Shown in pieces: positions 23,940 through 30,034 of a stretch of 64,000 bases of DNA. Each line of letters starts with the position of its first letter. Position 1 is the stretch's first letter. Location of the stretch: NCBI RefSeq assembly GCF_021233415.1, contig NZ_CP089466.1:1488001-1552000 (forward strand), read 5' to 3'. The notes beneath the pieces are model-generated. The model was not told the DNA's origin, did no database searches, and saw only the letters and a program-made list of their open reading frames with translations. Source of the DNA: Halobacterium litoreum (GTDB lineage Archaea > Halobacteriota > Halobacteria > Halobacteriales > Halobacteriaceae). A program made the position numbers and the translations under genes.

Positions 23940-24989
23940 TCAGAACGTCGCGCCGTCGAACCCGAAGAAGGCCGTCTCGTACCCCTCGTGGCGCGACAGT
24001 TGGGTCGGCGACGTGACGCCCACCTGCAGGTCGTCGCCCTCGCTCACGCCCGAGACGGCGGCCGCGTAGTGGTAGCCGAGTTCGGGGTCGAGCGTCGGCA
24101 CGAGCGGCACCGACTCGCCGGAGTCGCCGACAGTCACGTCGAGCGTCGACGCGGCCAGTGGGAAGCGATTGTAGGCCGAGCGCAGGGACGCCGCGACGTA
24201 CGTCTCGTCGCTCCCCGTGGCGAGGTTCCCGCGCGATTCGGCGGTGCCGACGACGAGTTCAGCGCCCGCACCCGACTCGGTGCCGCGCACGTCGACCGGG
24301 AGCGAGTCCGCGGGCGGCGACTGCCCCATCGACACGAACCCCATCCCCATCGGGTCGACCGTTCCGGGAGTGCCCTCGCGGTCGGCGGCGATGTCCGTGA
24401 ACGCGAGGTCGTCGAGCGCGGCCGACTCGAAGGTGAACGAGAAGGAGAACGGAATCGGGCCGTCCGGCGCCTCGACGCCGTCCGTCCGCCGGGTGCCGCC
24501 GGGCGCCACGCTGACCGTCGCCTCGTAGTCGCCGTCCGGGCCGAGTTCGACGTTGTCGCCGTAGTGGACGCCCATCCGCTGGGAGAGCATCTGCCACGGG
24601 CTGAGCGTGCTCGTCTCGCCGTCCGGGTCGGTGAGTTCGACCCGCGGGCTGGCGGCGGGGAGCGCGACGCCCGCCTCGGCGTCCCAGACGGACACCATCA
24701 GGTGGACGTCCTCGGCGGATTCCGCGTTCACGCGCTCGGTCTCGGAGCCGCGAGTCAGCCAGAAGCGGTGCGGGAACGTGTACGTGAGCGCGGCGCGGTA
24801 CCGGCCGTTCGCGCCCTTCCCCGCCATCGTCATCCCCTCGTAGTGCGTCGGAACGTAGGGCTCGTCCGGGCGGTTCTCGGGGAGCGGCGGCTCCCGGTTG
24901 GCCTTCTGGGTCTCCAAGAGGCCGAAACAGCCCGCCGTCGCCGCGAGCCCCGACACGCCGGTCGCCGCGAGGAACGAGCGCCTACGCAT
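23940..24989 (-). CDS. P19-like (iron/copper-binding) Tat lipoprotein
   Basis: A 349-residue exported lipoprotein: RRRSFLAATGVSGLAATAGCFG gives a twin-arginine signal and lipobox (Cys near residue 21). The following region resembles the P19/Tp34 iron-transport fold: VPTHYEGMTMAGKG, YTFPHRFWLTRG, and repeated YEATVSVAPGG-type strands. Met and His residues in these blocks are plausible copper/iron ligands. It would sit outside the cell membrane, delivering Fe2+ or handling redox-active metal. It overlaps the DyP-like gene by 8 bp. The divergent membrane protein (26359) is the likely partner. Function is by family and context. Confidence 0.75.
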   Translation of the reverse strand: MRRRSFLAATGVSGLAATAGCFGLLETQKANREPPLPENRPDEPYVPTHYEGMTMAGKGANGRYRAALTYTFPHRFWLTRGSETERVNAESAEDVHLMVSVWDAEAGVALPAASPRVELTDPDGETSTLSPWQMLSQRMGVHYGDNVELGPDGDYEATVSVAPGGTRRTDGVEAPDGPIPFSFSFTFESAALDDLAFTDIAADREGTPGTVDPMGMGFVSMGQSPPADSLPVDVRGTESGAGAELVVGTAESRGNLATGSDETYVAASLRSAYNRFPLAASTLDVTVGDSGESVPLVPTLDPELGYHYAAAVSGVSEGDDLQVGVTSPTQLSRHEGYETAFFGFDGATF

Positions 24990-26256
24990 CGTTGCCCTCC
25001 GGCGTCGGGAGCGACCGACTGCTCCGGGGCGGCAGGAGGTAGTTCCCGCGCCGCGTCACCGACAGGTACTGCCGGATGCCGTTGTTCGTGCGCCGACCCA
25101 CCGCCGACTGCTGTGAGATGTCGTCTGCGTTCATGGCGTCTCTGGTGGCTTCGAAGTCAGCGATTTCGCGCTGGAGCGCGAGGAAGTGGACGCCCGCGCG
25201 TCCGCCGTCCGTCGAGTCGAAGTCCCGCCGCAGAATGACGGGGCGCCCGTCCTCGCGGACGGACTGGAGTTTCTGTCCGTGGCCGACGACGCCCTCCTCG
25301 CGGGCCGTCTCGGTCGGGTCGCCGCAGTCGTCTAACTGCGGGGTCGCGCCGAGGTTCTCGCCGGTGCCCTCCACGGCACCGGACTCGGCGTGCGCGGGAC
25401 AGAACATCTTCGCGACGCGCTCCTCGCGGCCGTCCTGCTCGTACCACTGCTGGAGGTTCAGGTCGATGTGGGAGACGTGCTGGGTGGTGCCGCCCGCGAA
25501 CGGCCCGGACTGAATCGTCACGCGGTCCTCGGTCGCCTGGCTCTTCTCGAAGTCCGACTTGAACCCCATGTAGAGGGGTGCGTCGTCGGGCACGGGTTCC
25601 GAGTCGGGGACGCCGCCGGTGTCCTGATTCTCCGCCGGCAGGCCCTCGCCGACGAAGCCGGTGCGGCGCTCGGTCACCGAGAACGCTTCGGTGAGCGCCG
25701 ACCGCATCGAATCGCCGTTGACGTCCTCGCGGTTCCCGCGCAGCCCCTCCTCGGCCTCGAGGACGACCTCGGCCCGGTCGCTCGCGAGGTGGACGAGGGC
25801 GTCCGAGTCGTCGAACGCGGGGGATTCGAGGTCCGAGAGCGCGCGCGGTTCGGGCAGGCCGACGCCCTCGGGCGACCCGCCGAGCGACTCGAAGTACGCC
25901 GGCGAGTAGCCGACGGTGAACAGCAGGCCCTCGTTCGACCACTCGTAGGCGGTCTCCAGCGACCGGAGCGAGGCCTCGACGGCGTCCCGGTCGTCGTCGG
26001 TCGGTTCGCTCCCGTCGAAGTCGAGGTGCAGGAGGACGTGGTGGCGCGGCGGGCGCACGTTCGCGTGGTCGTCGCGCGCCGAGTGTGCGTTCCACGCGTG
26101 CTGGCGGTCGGGGAGGGAAGCGGGGTCGTCGGTCCCTGTCGGAACCGGTTCCTCGCTCCCGCGGTCCATACACGCCGCGAGCGCGCTCGCGCCGCCGATG
26201 GCGACGGCCGACTTGAGGAACGCGCGACGCGGAACGCCGCGCTCGTCGGGGGACAT
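24982..26256 (-). CDS. DyP-type peroxidase-like Tat-exported protein (DUF7405-like)
   Basis: The 424 residues carry a Tat signal (RRAFLKSAVAIGGASALAAC, possibly a lipoprotein). The body resembles dye-decolorising peroxidases of the EfeB type: HVLLHLDFDGSEPT, FTVGYSPAYFES, DALVHLASDRAEVV and HIDLNLQQWYEQD. The usual GxxDG heme motif is not intact and reads GFKSD, so peroxidase activity is uncertain. A P19-like lipoprotein follows with an 8-bp overlap, echoing EfeOB-type iron systems. It is probably transcribed from the promoter region that contains the 42-bp dyad at 26287-26328. Confidence 0.75.
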   Translation of the reverse strand: MSPDERGVPRRAFLKSAVAIGGASALAACMDRGSEEPVPTGTDDPASLPDRQHAWNAHSARDDHANVRPPRHHVLLHLDFDGSEPTDDDRDAVEASLRSLETAYEWSNEGLLFTVGYSPAYFESLGGSPEGVGLPEPRALSDLESPAFDDSDALVHLASDRAEVVLEAEEGLRGNREDVNGDSMRSALTEAFSVTERRTGFVGEGLPAENQDTGGVPDSEPVPDDAPLYMGFKSDFEKSQATEDRVTIQSGPFAGGTTQHVSHIDLNLQQWYEQDGREERVAKMFCPAHAESGAVEGTGENLGATPQLDDCGDPTETAREEGVVGHGQKLQSVREDGRPVILRRDFDSTDGGRAGVHFLALQREIADFEATRDAMNADDISQQSAVGRRTNNGIRQYLSVTRRGNYLLPPRSSRSLPTPEGNDA

Positions 26257-26286
26257 AGTCGAGAGTTACGGACGCGACTGAAAAGG

Positions 26287-26328
26287 GATTCTGGTGCGGG
26301 CGTCGAATTCGACGCGCGAACCAGAATC
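26287..26328. promoter_or_regulatory. 42-bp dyad operator between divergent metal/redox genes
   Basis: The left arm GATTCTGGT (26287-26295) and right arm ACCAGAATC (26320-26328) are exact inverted repeats around the 14-bp palindrome CGTCGAATTCGACG (26301-26314). All elements share one centre between 26307 and 26308. The dyad lies between the DyP-like start (26256, minus) and the membrane-protein start (26359, plus), about where an operator controlling both promoters would be. The binding protein is unknown. Confidence 0.75.
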
Positions 26329-26358
26329 AGTTAAGGCACGGAATCGCTACGCCGGAGT

Positions 26359-27468
26359 ATGCAGACGATACGGCGCGCCGCGCGCGCCACCGGCGGAACG
26401 GTCGCAGCGACGGCAGTCGCCGGCACCGCGGCGGCGCACTCGGGAACGACGCACGCCGGCACGCCGCACTGGCTGTTGTTCGTGCTCGCCATCGCGGGCG
26501 CACTCGGCACCGCGGGCGCCGTCGCGGCGTACCGTCGCGGCGCCCTCGACGGCACGGTCGGCGCGCTCGCGGCGCTCTCGGCGGCGCTCCTCGCGGCGTT
26601 CGGTCTCGTCGGCCTCGTCGAACTCCAGGTCGTCTCCGAGACGCCGCCGTCGCTCACCGACATCTACCCCGGCCTGAGCCTCGCCGTCGCGGGCGCGATG
26701 GCAGTCGGGAGTCTCGTCGTCGGCCGCTGGAAGTTCCCCCAGCGCCCCCGGTACACCGCGCTCGGCGTGCTGCTCGCGGCGTGGGTCGTCTACCCCGTCG
26801 CGATGCCGAACGGCGGCGTCTACCACCCGCTCGGCTACGTGCTCGTGGCGACCGTCGCGTTCGCCGTCGGGTACGTCGTGTGGCGGGACACGCGGGCCGT
26901 CGTCCAGAGCCTGCGGCGCGACCGCCGACCGCTCGCGGGCGGCCTGCTCGCCGGCACCATGTTCGTCGTGTTCCTCGCGTTCTCAGCGGGCACGCTCACG
27001 CTCAACCCCGACGCAGGCGTCGGCGCGCCAACCGAGACGCTCGTGTTGTTCATCCCGGTCGCCGACCCCCTCGTCGCGTGGCCCGCCGTCGAGTTCGTGT
27101 TCCCCTCCGTCCCGCTCGCCGGGTTCGTCTCCGTCGGCACCGTCCTCCTCTTCGGCCTGCTCGGGGGGCTCGTCACCCTGAACGTCGGCGTGCTCGTCCA
27201 GCAGTGGCGCGCCGGCGCCGCCGCCGACTCCAGTACCTCGGTTCTCGGGATGGCCGCGAGCACCGGCGCGACGGCGTGCTGTTGCTGTGCGCCCGCGTTC
27301 TACGGCGTGATTTCGGTGATTTTCGGCGCCGCCGCGACGCCCGCGTACTGGGCGTTCATGAACCCCGCGTCGCCCGTCGGCGGCGTCTTCTTCGCGTCCA
27401 GCGTCCTGTTGTTGCTCGGGAGCCTCGTGCGGTCGACGGGCGGCGGACAGAGCGCGGTCCCGCAGTGA
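26359..27468 (+). CDS. Polytopic membrane protein with a four-Cys cluster
   Basis: A 369-residue protein with an N-terminal signal-like segment (TVAATAVAGTAAAHSG), then about eight hydrophobic helices (near 35-55, 60-80, 105-125, 135-155, 160-180, 200-220, 240-285, 300-325 and 335-355). A striking ATACCCCAPAFYG motif near residue 312 sits at the start of a late helix. His residues near the N-terminus (AAHSGTTHAGTPH) could bind metal. I do not recognise the family with certainty. The context with P19-like and DyP-like proteins across a shared operator suggests metal transport or electron transfer at the membrane. No REXXE iron-permease motif is present. Confidence 0.7.
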   Translation: MQTIRRAARATGGTVAATAVAGTAAAHSGTTHAGTPHWLLFVLAIAGALGTAGAVAAYRRGALDGTVGALAALSAALLAAFGLVGLVELQVVSETPPSLTDIYPGLSLAVAGAMAVGSLVVGRWKFPQRPRYTALGVLLAAWVVYPVAMPNGGVYHPLGYVLVATVAFAVGYVVWRDTRAVVQSLRRDRRPLAGGLLAGTMFVVFLAFSAGTLTLNPDAGVGAPTETLVLFIPVADPLVAWPAVEFVFPSVPLAGFVSVGTVLLFGLLGGLVTLNVGVLVQQWRAGAAADSSTSVLGMAASTGATACCCCAPAFYGVISVIFGAAATPAYWAFMNPASPVGGVFFASSVLLLLGSLVRSTGGGQSAVPQ

Positions 27469-27469
27469 C

Positions 27470-28429
27470 TCACTCGGGGCACGCCAGCAGCGTCGACACC
27501 GTCGCCGCGTCGACCGTCCCGTCCTCGCCGACCGTCGCCGCGGTCGTGCGCTGATTGCAGTCGAAGGACGACGCCGCCACCGTCTCGGTCGCCGCGTCCC
27601 CGGACTCGACGACGGTCGCGGACAGCGCGTAGTCGGCCGGCTCCGGAATCGACACCGACGCCGAGGCGCCGGGTTCGAGCGCGTAGACGCCGTCGAACGG
27701 GTACTGGCCGTCTCGCTCGACGAGCAAGCGCACGGTCCACGTCTCGTCGGTCGGATTCTCGGCGACGAGCGCGTGCGGAGCCGGCTCGTCGGGCTCCGGT
27801 TCGGTGGTCGCCGTCGGGCCACCGACCGTCGCCGTCGTCGCGTCCCCGGCGGGAACGTGTTCGGTAACGACGCCCGGGCACGCCATCAGCGTGGACGCCG
27901 TCTGTGCGGTGAGGTCGCCGTTCCGGAGCGCGAACGACGTGCGCTGGACGTTACAGGTGAACGCGTCCGGGCCGAGCGCGACGGACTCGCTGGCGTTCCG
28001 CTCGGGGAGTTCGCAGGTCGCGTCGAAGCGCGCGAGGTCGGTCAGCGAGACGCGGACCGCGGCGCCGGGCGCGAGCGCGAACGCCCGGTCGAACGACGCT
28101 TCGCCGTCGCGTTCGACGGCGAGCGAGGCGACCAGTTCGCCGTCGCCGCGGTTCGGTACCACGAGCAGGTGTTCGCGCCGACTGCCCGCGTCGGCGAGCG
28201 ACCCGTCACCGACCGCGAACGACACCGTCTCGCCGGCCGCGACGCGCGTTCGCTCGGTTTCCGGCGACGCCTCGTTCGCGTCGCCGTCTGTCGTCTCGGT
28301 GCGCGTCGTCTCGTCGGACGTCGGCCCGCGAGTCGTCGAGTCGTCGGCGCTCGGCGCGCGCGACGCACAGCCCGCGGCGAGTGTGGAGAGGGCGATACCG
28401 GCGGTTCCCAGAAACGCTCTGCGTTCCAT
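27470..28429 (-). CDS. Tat lipoprotein with two Cys-containing repeats
   Basis: A 319-residue protein that begins MERRAFLGTAGIALSTLAAGC, a Tat lipoprotein signal. A Ser/Thr/Asp-rich linker follows, then two related domains of about 120 residues. The first ends FTCNVQRTSFA...TASTLMACPG and the second SFDCNQRTTAA...TVSTLLACPE, so each has a Cys pair around a similar segment. Both contain a DR-type beta sandwich pattern (LVVPNRGDGELVASLAVERDG and LVAENPTDETWTVRLLVERDG in outline). The function is unknown. The upstream dyad at 28469-28488 matches one before the adjacent regulator, so the two genes are likely co-regulated. The gene converges with the membrane-protein gene 1 nt away. Confidence 0.72.
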   Translation of the reverse strand: MERRAFLGTAGIALSTLAAGCASRAPSADDSTTRGPTSDETTRTETTDGDANEASPETERTRVAAGETVSFAVGDGSLADAGSRREHLLVVPNRGDGELVASLAVERDGEASFDRAFALAPGAAVRVSLTDLARFDATCELPERNASESVALGPDAFTCNVQRTSFALRNGDLTAQTASTLMACPGVVTEHVPAGDATTATVGGPTATTEPEPDEPAPHALVAENPTDETWTVRLLVERDGQYPFDGVYALEPGASASVSIPEPADYALSATVVESGDAATETVAASSFDCNQRTTAATVGEDGTVDAATVSTLLACPE

Positions 28430-28468
28430 ACCACGACTACAGCGAGGGACACCATCCCCGTATCCCAG

Positions 28469-28488
28469 ATTCAAAGACGCGTTTGAAT
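28469..28488. promoter_or_regulatory. Dyad operator upstream of the repeat lipoprotein
   Basis: ATTCAAAGACGCGTTTGAAT is an inverted repeat (with CCAG/CTGG flanks it extends to 28465-28492). Its centre is about 50 bp before the ATG at 28429. It matches the dyad at 29171-29190 in 17 of 20 positions. Confidence 0.75.
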
Positions 28489-28503
28489 CTGGTAGCCCGT
28501 CGG

Positions 28504-29130
28504 TCACCGACTCGGCGGCGCGTAGCGGTACTGCCAGAACGCGAACGCGCCCGCGATGACGAACAGGCCGGTGGCGAAGACGGCGCCGCCCGGACCAGTG
28601 GCGTAGGCGGCGACGGCGTCGAGGAGCGAGGGGTCGGTTGGCTGGACGGGTGCGTCGCGGGGCGCCGCTATCGGCGTCGGCGACGGCGACGACTGCGAGA
28701 GCGCCCGGAAGTGGACGACGAGGCTGGCGAGCGCGACGAACACGACGCCGGAGAGCGCGCGACGGAGCGCCCGCGACACCGACGGGCGGGCGCGCTCGGC
28801 GCCCGCGAACAGGACGAGCGAGCCGTTCGCCGGCGCGTACACGTCCATCTCGCGGCCCTGCTCGGAGTACCACGTCTCCACGACTTCGATGAGGCCGGCG
28901 TCCCGGAGGCGTTCGAGGTGGTAACTGACGTTCTGCACGGACGAGTCGACGGCGTCGGCGACGTCCGAGGCGGTCTGAGGGTCGTCGTAGAGCGAGACGA
29001 GAATCGAGCGCGCGGTCTCGGAGGATGCCACGCGGAACACGTCGTCGGCGGCCGCGTCGTCGAACGCGACCAGTTCCGGGTCGAGGTCGCGGTCGTCGAC
29101 GGACGGCTTCAGCGGCAGGAGCGTCGACAT
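28504..29130 (-). CDS. ArsR-type winged-helix regulator with C-terminal membrane segments
   Basis: A 208-residue protein. Residues about 25-100 form a winged helix (FRVASSETARSILVSLYDD, then QTASDVADAVDSSVQNVSYHLERLRDAGLIE, in outline). Two hydrophobic helices follow (about 128-148 and 180-198). This is a membrane-tethered haloarchaeal ArsR-like regulator. The ATG at 29128-29130 (MSTLLPLKPSV) is preferred because a longer reading would run into the dyad region. A 16-bp perfect palindrome lies 50 bp upstream and a near copy lies before the next gene. Autoregulation together with control of the lipoprotein is therefore the simplest model. Confidence 0.82.
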   Translation of the reverse strand: MSTLLPLKPSVDDRDLDPELVAFDDAAADDVFRVASSETARSILVSLYDDPQTASDVADAVDSSVQNVSYHLERLRDAGLIEVVETWYSEQGREMDVYAPANGSLVLFAGAERARPSVSRALRRALSGVVFVALASLVVHFRALSQSSPSPTPIAAPRDAPVQPTDPSLLDAVAAYATGPGGAVFATGLFVIAGAFAFWQYRYAPPSR

Positions 29131-29170
29131 ACCGACTCGTTTCTCGCAGGGGGACTTAGGCACGGCCGAC

Positions 29171-29190
29171 ACTCAAAGGCGCCTTTGAAT
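29171..29190. promoter_or_regulatory. Dyad operator upstream of the membrane-tethered regulator
   Basis: ACTCAAAGGCGCCTTTGAAT contains the perfect 16-bp palindrome TCAAAGGCGCCTTTGA (29173-29188). Its centre is about 50 bp before the ATG at 29130, the same distance as the related dyad upstream of the lipoprotein gene. Confidence 0.78.
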
Positions 29191-29198
29191 CCCGCGAG

Positions 29199-29708
29199 TC
29201 AGTCCAGTAGCGAGTCCACGAGGCGCTCGAAGCGGTCGACGAAGCGCTCGGGCGCGGACGGCCGGACCGCTTCGAGGACGGCCACCGTCTCGTCGGGGCG
29301 AGTCAGCGCGAGCGTCACGCGGTTCCGCGAGTCGCGGCGCTTCTCCACGACCCCGCAGTCTTCGAGGTTCGAGACGTGGTGTTCGAGCGTGCTGCGCGCG
29401 ACGCCGACGCTCTCGGCGACGTCGCCCGGCGACGACGGGCCGTTCTCTAGCAGACTGACGAGCACGTCGCGGGCCGTCTCGCGGCGGGCGAGCGCGAGCG
29501 CGCCGCGCTCCCACTCGTCGGTCTCCGGCGGGAAGTAGTGAGTGCGCCCGTAGAAGCCGTCGGCGTCGAGGGCGTCCTCGTCGCGGAGGCGCCGGACGTG
29601 GTGTTGGACTTGGCCGGCGGCGAGGTCCAACTCCCGGACGAGCGCGTTGAAGTGGACGCCCGGGTTCGCGTCGACGTGGTCGCGGATGTCTTCGCGCACG
29701 TCGGTCAT
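29199..29708 (-). CDS. Tandem winged-helix transcriptional regulator
   Basis: A 169-residue soluble protein with two winged-helix domains: one near residues 1-65 (VHFNALVRELDLAAGQVQHHVRRL) and another near 75-140 (ARDVLVSLLENGPSSPGDVAESVGVARSTLEHHVSNLEDCGVVEKR, in outline). The doubled architecture is common in haloarchaeal regulators that may bind DNA without needing a dimer partner. It overlaps the small membrane gene upstream by 4 bp and could be a two-gene unit with it. The target is unknown. Confidence 0.82.
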   Translation of the reverse strand: MTDVREDIRDHVDANPGVHFNALVRELDLAAGQVQHHVRRLRDEDALDADGFYGRTHYFPPETDEWERGALALARRETARDVLVSLLENGPSSPGDVAESVGVARSTLEHHVSNLEDCGVVEKRRDSRNRVTLALTRPDETVAVLEAVRPSAPERFVDRFERLVDSLLD

Positions 29709-30034
29709 CGCGTTCCACCTCCGGCGGCGTCCGCGGAGCGCGCGTAGTACACCGCCGCGACGACGAGCGCCGCCATCACCACGTCCAGCGAGTGCTCGAC
29801 GAGGTGGTGGCTGTCGAGCGCGACGGCGCCCGCGAGGCTCGCGCCCGCGACGACGGTGCGCGCGAGCAGCGCGCCGAGCGCGAGCGCGACCAGCAGGTGA
29901 GAGCGGGAGCGCCGCCGCAGGAACACGGCGAGCGCCGCGCCCGTGAGCAGGGCGGCAGCGACGCCGGCGAGCGCGAGCGCCCCCACGAGAGGGAGACTCA
30001 TGCCCGTGGCCTGTGCGTGCGCGATGGGTATCAC
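29705..30034 (-). CDS. Small polytopic membrane protein (haloarchaeal, unknown function)
   Basis: About 109 residues with three hydrophobic helices (near 13-35, 43-62 and 75-98) and a His-containing loop DSHHLVEHSLD before the last one. The GTG at 30032-30034 is chosen because it follows a purine-rich AGGGGGAG by a few bases; a GTG 16 codons upstream is the alternative. The gene overlaps the winged-helix regulator start by 4 bp. It may be a membrane sensor that feeds that regulator, which is inference from the pairing alone. Confidence 0.6.
   Translation of the reverse strand: MIPIAHAQATGMSLPLVGALALAGVAAALLTGAALAVFLRRRSRSHLLVALALGALLARTVVAGASLAGAVALDSHHLVEHSLDVVMAALVVAAVYYARSADAAGGGTR

Follow-up and report, generated by a model that had tools for sequence, protein, structure and literature searches.

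A membrane-tethered ArsR-like regulator and a Tat lipoprotein of Halobacteriales form an apparently mobile two-gene cassette with a shared candidate operator

Archaeal regulators with a defined operator are few, and little is understood of how archaea relay signals from their surface to transcription. The membrane-bound one-component activators ArnR and ArnR1 reportedly go back to Lassak et al. 2013. These archaellum activators of Sulfolobus acidocaldarius comprise an N-terminal HTH domain and two C-terminal transmembrane (TM) segments, and the inverted-repeat boxes of ArnR, found within positions -43 to -84, immediately precede the BRE/TATA elements of its target promoter, which belongs to a surface protein gene (PMC6396743). 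The transmembrane transcription regulators (TTRs), in which a DNA-binding domain and a TM region are combined in one chain, are a class widespread in bacteria and archaea; the main text of the TTR survey nowhere refers to Halobacteria, to ArsR, to partner lipoproteins or to autoregulation (PMC10269533). In haloarchaea, the soluble leucine-zipper-like activator GvpE binds an 8-4-8 UAS adjacent to the BRE of its target genes (PMC4390858).

The 64-kb stretch of Halobacterium litoreum DNA analysed here (the window) encodes a regulator that shares with ArnR and ArnR1 the N-terminal HTH followed by two C-terminal TM segments, and with the TTRs the union of DNA-binding and TM regions in one chain. 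As in the ArnR system, inverted repeats directly precede the BRE/TATA elements of a surface protein gene, and, like the GvpE UAS, the dyad is an element of about 20 nt with two half-sites adjoining the BRE, although GvpE belongs to a different protein family. The ArnR box reads TCGAC-N5-GTCGA, whereas the site of the cassette is GAYTCAAA-N6-TTTGARTC. ArnR, a phosphorylation target of ArnC, has a putative HAMP domain and a putative sensory domain (PMC6396743), while in the window regulator a HAMP domain gave no match at E values up to 0.1. Membership in the ArnR group is not claimed, because HAMP was not found and the box sequence differs. The target of ArnR is flaB and not an adjoining partner lipoprotein gene, whereas here a site precedes each gene of a two-gene cassette. 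The sequence-only reading had known of no described system of this composition, which holds for the composition itself, since neither this pair nor its operator was found described in the open literature; as a class, membrane-tethered HTH regulators are known from ArnR/ArnR1 (PMC6396743), there with inverted-repeat operators, and from the TTRs (PMC10269533).

The regulator gene (28504..29130, minus strand) codes for a protein of 208 amino acids whose N-terminal ArsR-like winged helix matches HTH_20 (E 4e-14, 52.7 bits against a cut-off of 27) and also HTH_5, and whose C-terminal part, residues 108-202, matches PF24267 (HVO_1552_C) with 30 bits against a cut-off of 27. The winged helix-turn-helix domain, located by Pfam and the structure model, occupies residues 36-84 (28879..29025), and is followed after only about 40 residues by the first of two predicted TM helices, about residues 126-144 (28699..28755) and 181-199 (28534..28590), all on the minus strand. 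These helices are based on the model and on two hydrophobic segments near residues 121-144 and 181-199, which recur in most orthologues; residues of about 147-178 between them form the predicted external loop. The model, of moderate confidence (mean pLDDT 68.5), consists of an ArsR-type winged helix that matches solved structures of ArsR-type regulators, and two long C-terminal helices. The protein thus has the architecture of the HVO_1552-type regulators, namely an HTH_20-like N-terminal winged helix combined with HVO_1552_C and its TM helices, but its orthologue group is set apart from the other members by a score gap, a dyad of its own and a lipoprotein partner. A defence role of the pair was considered and set aside, as PADLOC returned only generic winged-helix similarity of the regulator to Csa3/CARF and no match for the lipoprotein.

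The adjoining gene (27470..28429, minus strand) encodes a Tat lipoprotein of 319 amino acids, with a twin-arginine motif followed by a lipobox cysteine (MERRAFLGTAGIALSTLAAGC), in which R3, R4, G20 and C21 are invariant among 19-21 homologues. The model, with pLDDT mostly above 90, consists of two beta-sandwich domains in tandem. Each contains a conserved cysteine pair in an FxCN...STxxAC motif, and this pair flanks the last beta-hairpin. The pair of domain 1 (C159-C184, 27878..27955, minus strand), assigned by Pfam and homologue alignment, is META-like, and that of domain 2 (C291-C317, 27479..27559, minus strand) was assigned by homologue alignment. Since one conserved pair per domain flanks a hairpin, the cysteines look structural, and we infer that they form one disulfide in each domain. 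The motif FxCN...STxMAC resembles that of the META/HslJ lipoproteins (PF03724), which share CN...ST(R)MAC with the window protein. Matches to PF03724 were obtained for 17 of 21 homologues, all partial and covering about 31-37 of its 109 positions (best 5e-9); homologue L149 reaches 27.8 bits, while the window lipoprotein, at 18 bits, stays below the cut-off of 24. Unlike META/HslJ proteins, it is predicted to fold into two tandem transthyretin-like sandwiches. No significant sequence relatives were found in the PDB, and structural resemblance is confined to the beta-sandwich (TssJ with Z 7.9, the PepT2 extracellular domain, transthyretin), a likeness which is uninformative on function and was not used for family assignment.

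Both genes are preceded by a dyad, as the sequence-only reading had claimed. In the window, ATTCAAAGACGCGTTTGAAT at 28469-28488 and ACTCAAAGGCGCCTTTGAAT at 29171-29190 are inverted repeats identical at 17 of 20 positions, the former centred 49.5 bp before the ATG of the lipoprotein gene (28429, minus strand) and the latter 50.5 bp before that of the regulator gene (29130, minus strand). The positions, the 17/20 agreement and the spacing of about 50 bp were all confirmed, and so was the nature of the two proteins, a Tat lipoprotein with duplicated cysteine domains (twin-Arg and lipobox) and a membrane-tethered ArsR-like regulator (HTH_20/HTH_5 and two hydrophobic segments). The first dyad forms the central part of a longer inverted repeat of 28 bp (28465..28492; CCAGATTCAAACGCGTCTTTGAATCTGG on the minus strand) with perfect 11-bp arms, the longest in the window among those with a spacer of 4-8 bp; the arms GATTCAAA-N6-TTTGAATC extend over 28468-28489. 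The second occupies 29170..29191 (GATTCAAAGGCGCCTTTGAGTG on the minus strand). Their assignment as candidate operators is based on the sequence, a genome scan and the comparison of orthologues.

Scanning of the whole 2.71-Mb genome for WYTCAAA-N6-TTTGAAT with at most two mismatches, and with the reversed pattern as a control, recovered with 0-1 mismatch only these two dyads, while the five remaining matches all had two mismatches, the level of the control. A strict scan of 392 Halobacteriales genomes yielded 43 rows in 24 genomes, of which 38 are located at cassette genes, at copies of the lipoprotein or, in G109, at a remnant of it, and none with the reversed control. The five strict dyads outside cassettes, in G001, G013, G042, G043 and G130, have neither an adjoining cassette gene nor a clear start about 50 bp away, and were treated as unrelated.

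The prediction that the dyad would recur near regulator orthologues in other haloarchaeal genomes was borne out: the loci do not lack it, and in nearly every cassette the palindrome GAYTCAAA-N6-TTTGARTC stands before both genes, about 50 bp from the start. Among the best 30 lipoprotein loci, 27 match at least 13 of the 16 arm bases at 49.5-52.5 bp. Before all 25 adjacent regulators, 11/16 or more of the arm bases match, the sites being located at 49.5-51.5 bp in 21 cases, at 54.5 bp in one and at 57.5 bp in three, all from Natrialba. The lipoprotein site of G049, by contrast, scores only 10/16. The site is retained despite divergence of the proteins, whose identity to those of the window is 51-54% for the regulator and 35-43% for the lipoprotein, 35-55% overall. 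In non-redundant alignments the arms contain 1.60 bits per base before the lipoprotein (n=22) and 1.43 before the regulator (n=32), against 0.21 and 0.05 bits per base, respectively, in the 25 bases upstream of the dyads, and a second, weaker conserved block is found at the TATA position. It has next to no probability that the likeness of the two dyads is due to chance or is a functionless leftover of a promoter duplication. Short palindromes fitting a loose pattern do occur in the 64-kb window, but the dyads are unique genome-wide and conserved across genera, with arms conserved over flanks and 0 control matches in 392 genomes; this explanation was rejected as refuted by the orthologous loci.

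The dyads might also be terminators or RNA hairpins of the upstream genes, since each dyad of the window is located shortly downstream of a co-oriented gene, within 8-40 bp after its stop codon. Across 15 cassettes, however, the distance from dyad centre to start codon varies only from 49.5 to 52.5 bp (sd 0.9), whereas that from the upstream stop to the dyad centre ranges between 19.5 and 150.5 bp (sd 33). The spacing to the start is also retained in orphan lipoproteins whose upstream genes are unrelated, and a T-run after the dyad is absent. The fixed spacing on one side and the variable spacing on the other indicate that the dyad belongs to the promoter, and the terminator explanation, now very improbable, was rejected.

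The distribution of the two genes was determined in the same 392 genomes. A profile of three lipoproteins (E at most 1e-50) identified two-domain homologues in 44 genomes, and a profile of 18 regulators, with orthologues at E of at most 1e-75 and paralogues at 1e-57 or above, identified regulator orthologues in 38, clearly separated from the paralogues by score. The lipoprotein is present in 38 of the 38 regulator genomes, as compared with 6 of the 354 others (Fisher p 7e-47, uncorrected for phylogeny). One of these six genomes without the orthologous regulator, G283, has a disrupted copy. In 25 of the best 30 lipoprotein loci the regulator gene is directly upstream, in the same strand and order, and carriers of the pair include species of Halorubrum, Halomicrobium, Halorhabdus, Halobellus, Haloprofundus, Halovenus and Natrialba. 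The carriers are partly cultured species (Halorubrum, Halomicrobium, Natrialba and others), so that operator, regulator and partner are directly testable with existing haloarchaeal genetics.

The genes that flank the cassette differ almost everywhere. A conserved third gene or transport locus was sought and discarded, as metal, siderophore and cobalamin neighbours are single cases and no flanking family is common to most cassettes. In G003, which belongs to the genus of the window, the cassette (L011/L040) is 87-91% identical to Halorubrum copies (L145, L151), while its regulator has only 54% identity to that of the window. Since this copy is closer to Halorubrum than to the window, the cassette apparently moves between lineages as a unit, and the gene pair, judged from these comparisons, appears to be a conserved mobile two-gene cassette across Halobacteriales. 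No match to the cassette was found in phages or viral contigs.

The site and the regulator are linked further by orphan lipoproteins, which have no adjacent regulator and retain the dyad. In four genomes (G172, G378, G191 and G069) the orthologous regulator is encoded elsewhere, in G069 on a separate contig, where it is preceded by a dyad of its own at 50.5 bp; this suggests action in trans. Another protein might bind the dyads, for example the HVO_0163-type regulator encoded at 29199-29708 or a paralogue encoded in the genome. Paralogues with similar recognition helices do exist, and the genus has related dyads before other genes. Moreover, the lipoprotein gene of Hbt. salinarum DSM 3754 (G006; L156/L102) has a 14/16 dyad (AACTCAAACGCGCGTTTGAACC) at 50.5 bp, and no orthologous regulator above the score gap was found in this genome; a paralogue may bind there, which makes Hbt. 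salinarum a natural test of cross-regulation. Against a different binder, the gene at 29199-29708 is outside the conserved neighbourhood in other genomes, 19 of the 24 genomes with strict dyads encode the orthologous regulator, and in G389, where the lipoprotein is present without the orthologous regulator, the dyad is absent as well. The variable flanks likewise leave no third gene as a better candidate. A different binder is thus quite improbable, and the regulator of the cassette is the favoured one. The earlier proposal of a shared operator of an autoregulated pair is strongly supported at the level of sequence, by the same site before the regulator gene and its putative target, as in an autoregulated regulon, by phylogenetic footprinting across many genera, by co-inheritance, by orphan sites and by start-tied spacing.

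A TATA-like element (GCCTAAGT on the minus strand, 29154..29161) lies about 27 bp before the ATG of the regulator gene at a position conserved in orthologues, and a weak TATA-like position (28450..28457, minus strand; orthologue consensus CGATAC) precedes that of the lipoprotein gene; both are putative assignments from sequence and orthologues. Since 72% of the protein-coding transcripts of Hfx. volcanii are leaderless (PMC4983044), leaderless transcription was assumed for both genes. If this is so, the dyad would span about -61 to -39 and abut the BRE.

The pair may therefore be viewed as a self-contained regulatory cassette. The regulator, with its winged helix in the cytoplasm at the N-terminus and anchored by two C-terminal TM helices joined by a short external loop, would bind as a homodimer to the 22-bp GAYTCAAA-N6-TTTGARTC immediately upstream of the BRE/TATA region, and through this same dyad would control both its own promoter and that of the lipoprotein gene. 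By helping TFB/TBP it could activate them, resulting in positive autoregulation and co-induction of the lipoprotein upon a membrane signal. From the site and its distribution we infer the cassette regulator as binder, its dimeric binding and activation. Taken as a whole, the account in which the regulator binds both dyads as a dimer and activates its own gene and the lipoprotein gene is probably correct.

The sign of regulation, read from the position of the site, is likely to be activation, as the site ends just before the BRE and is not placed over the TATA element or the start site. Alternatively, the same regulator could bind the same sites as a repressor, keeping TFB/TBP from being recruited to either promoter until it is released by a signal at the membrane. 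Many soluble proteins of the ArsR fold are repressors, and the dyad ends a few bases before the BRE position, near enough for steric exclusion; archaeal repressor sites, however, are usually located over the BRE, TATA or transcription start site. Sites just upstream of the BRE, as here, are known for the activators GvpE and ArnR, whose UAS and boxes occupy like positions, and the TATA-like elements of several lipoprotein promoters are weak (CGATAC), as expected of activated promoters. Repression therefore seems unlikely, and activation is favoured.

The regulator had also been suggested to sense something at the membrane, possibly the state of the lipoprotein. The topology, in which the external loop is conserved and the partner protein is exported, is compatible with sensing of the lipoprotein, which we nevertheless regard as rather doubtful. 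Orphan lipoprotein L101 (G069) is encoded beside a Fe3+-siderophore-type ABC transporter and orphan L107 (G172) close to a P-type ATPase that carries a metal-binding domain; this could point to a signal connected with metals, although neighbours of this kind are missing from other copies. In all, sequence evidence from 38 genomes links one short site with a membrane-anchored regulator and a lipoprotein of the cell surface.

At about 52.5 bp before their genes, paralogous membrane-tethered regulators of the genus have a related but distinct dyad, GACTCAAA-N6-YTTTAG. The paralogue of G042 has a perfect dyad (AACTAAAACAGCGATTTTAGTT) 58 bp before its gene, which fits a regulator family whose members may each bind a dyad of one geometry. 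The pattern RCTMAAA-N6-TTTKAG is far commoner in the genus than its reversed control. Dyads of the CTMAAA-N6-TTTKAG class, such as those at G000:C1:816350, 1797369, 1960085 and 2356982, are found in several genomes of the genus about 49.5-52.5 bp before paralogous membrane-tethered regulators and families of exported proteins, namely, at about 50 bp, a short lipoprotein family (L243, L257, L271 and L272), a Tat-secreted family (L245, L248 and L259) and a second secreted family (L273 and L274). L275 and L239 are also among the loci with dyads of this class. This arrangement suggests that HVO_1552-type regulators might control envelope-protein genes more generally. It also points to a rule by which the regulons of a whole family of membrane regulators, so far uncharacterised, could be read.

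A broader and tentative possibility is that these regulators serve a general haloarchaeal envelope surveillance, in which each paralogue would sense something on the outer side of the membrane and drive its own gene and a few genes for exported proteins or lipoproteins through diverged dyads of a common geometry (the CTMAAA-N6-TTTKAG class) at about 50 bp before the start, the present cassette being a mobile, self-contained form whose lipoprotein is both target and sensor partner. If so, the cassette lipoprotein would close a feedback loop through the membrane.

In paralogues of the MSGLLPS type (L030, L036 and L037) a dyad, AACGACAA-N6-TTGTAGTT, is centred 29 bp before their own start. It thereby overlies the TATA position, where the site of a self-repressor would be expected. 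In several genomes a CTAAAA-N6-TTTGAG-like dyad also coincides with the stop codon of MSGLLPS-type paralogues, the second paralogous regulator, or follows shortly behind it (L242, L256, L262, L267, L270 and L286); it is probably a 3'-end or terminator element and not an operator. Some TCAAA/TTTTA dyads located where the gene of a second paralogue ends were likewise dismissed as operators, since they look like 3'-end elements.

In the window, the cassette is preceded on the minus strand by genes for an HTH protein with an HVO_0163 N-terminal domain and a second winged helix (29199-29708) and for a DUF7471 membrane protein (29705-30010). On the other side, the region 23940-27468 encodes a DUF7350/Fe2+-transport-like Tat lipoprotein, a DUF7405 Dyp-peroxidase-like Tat protein and, on the opposite strand, a membrane protein with a CCCC motif, and looks like an iron- or metal-related locus.
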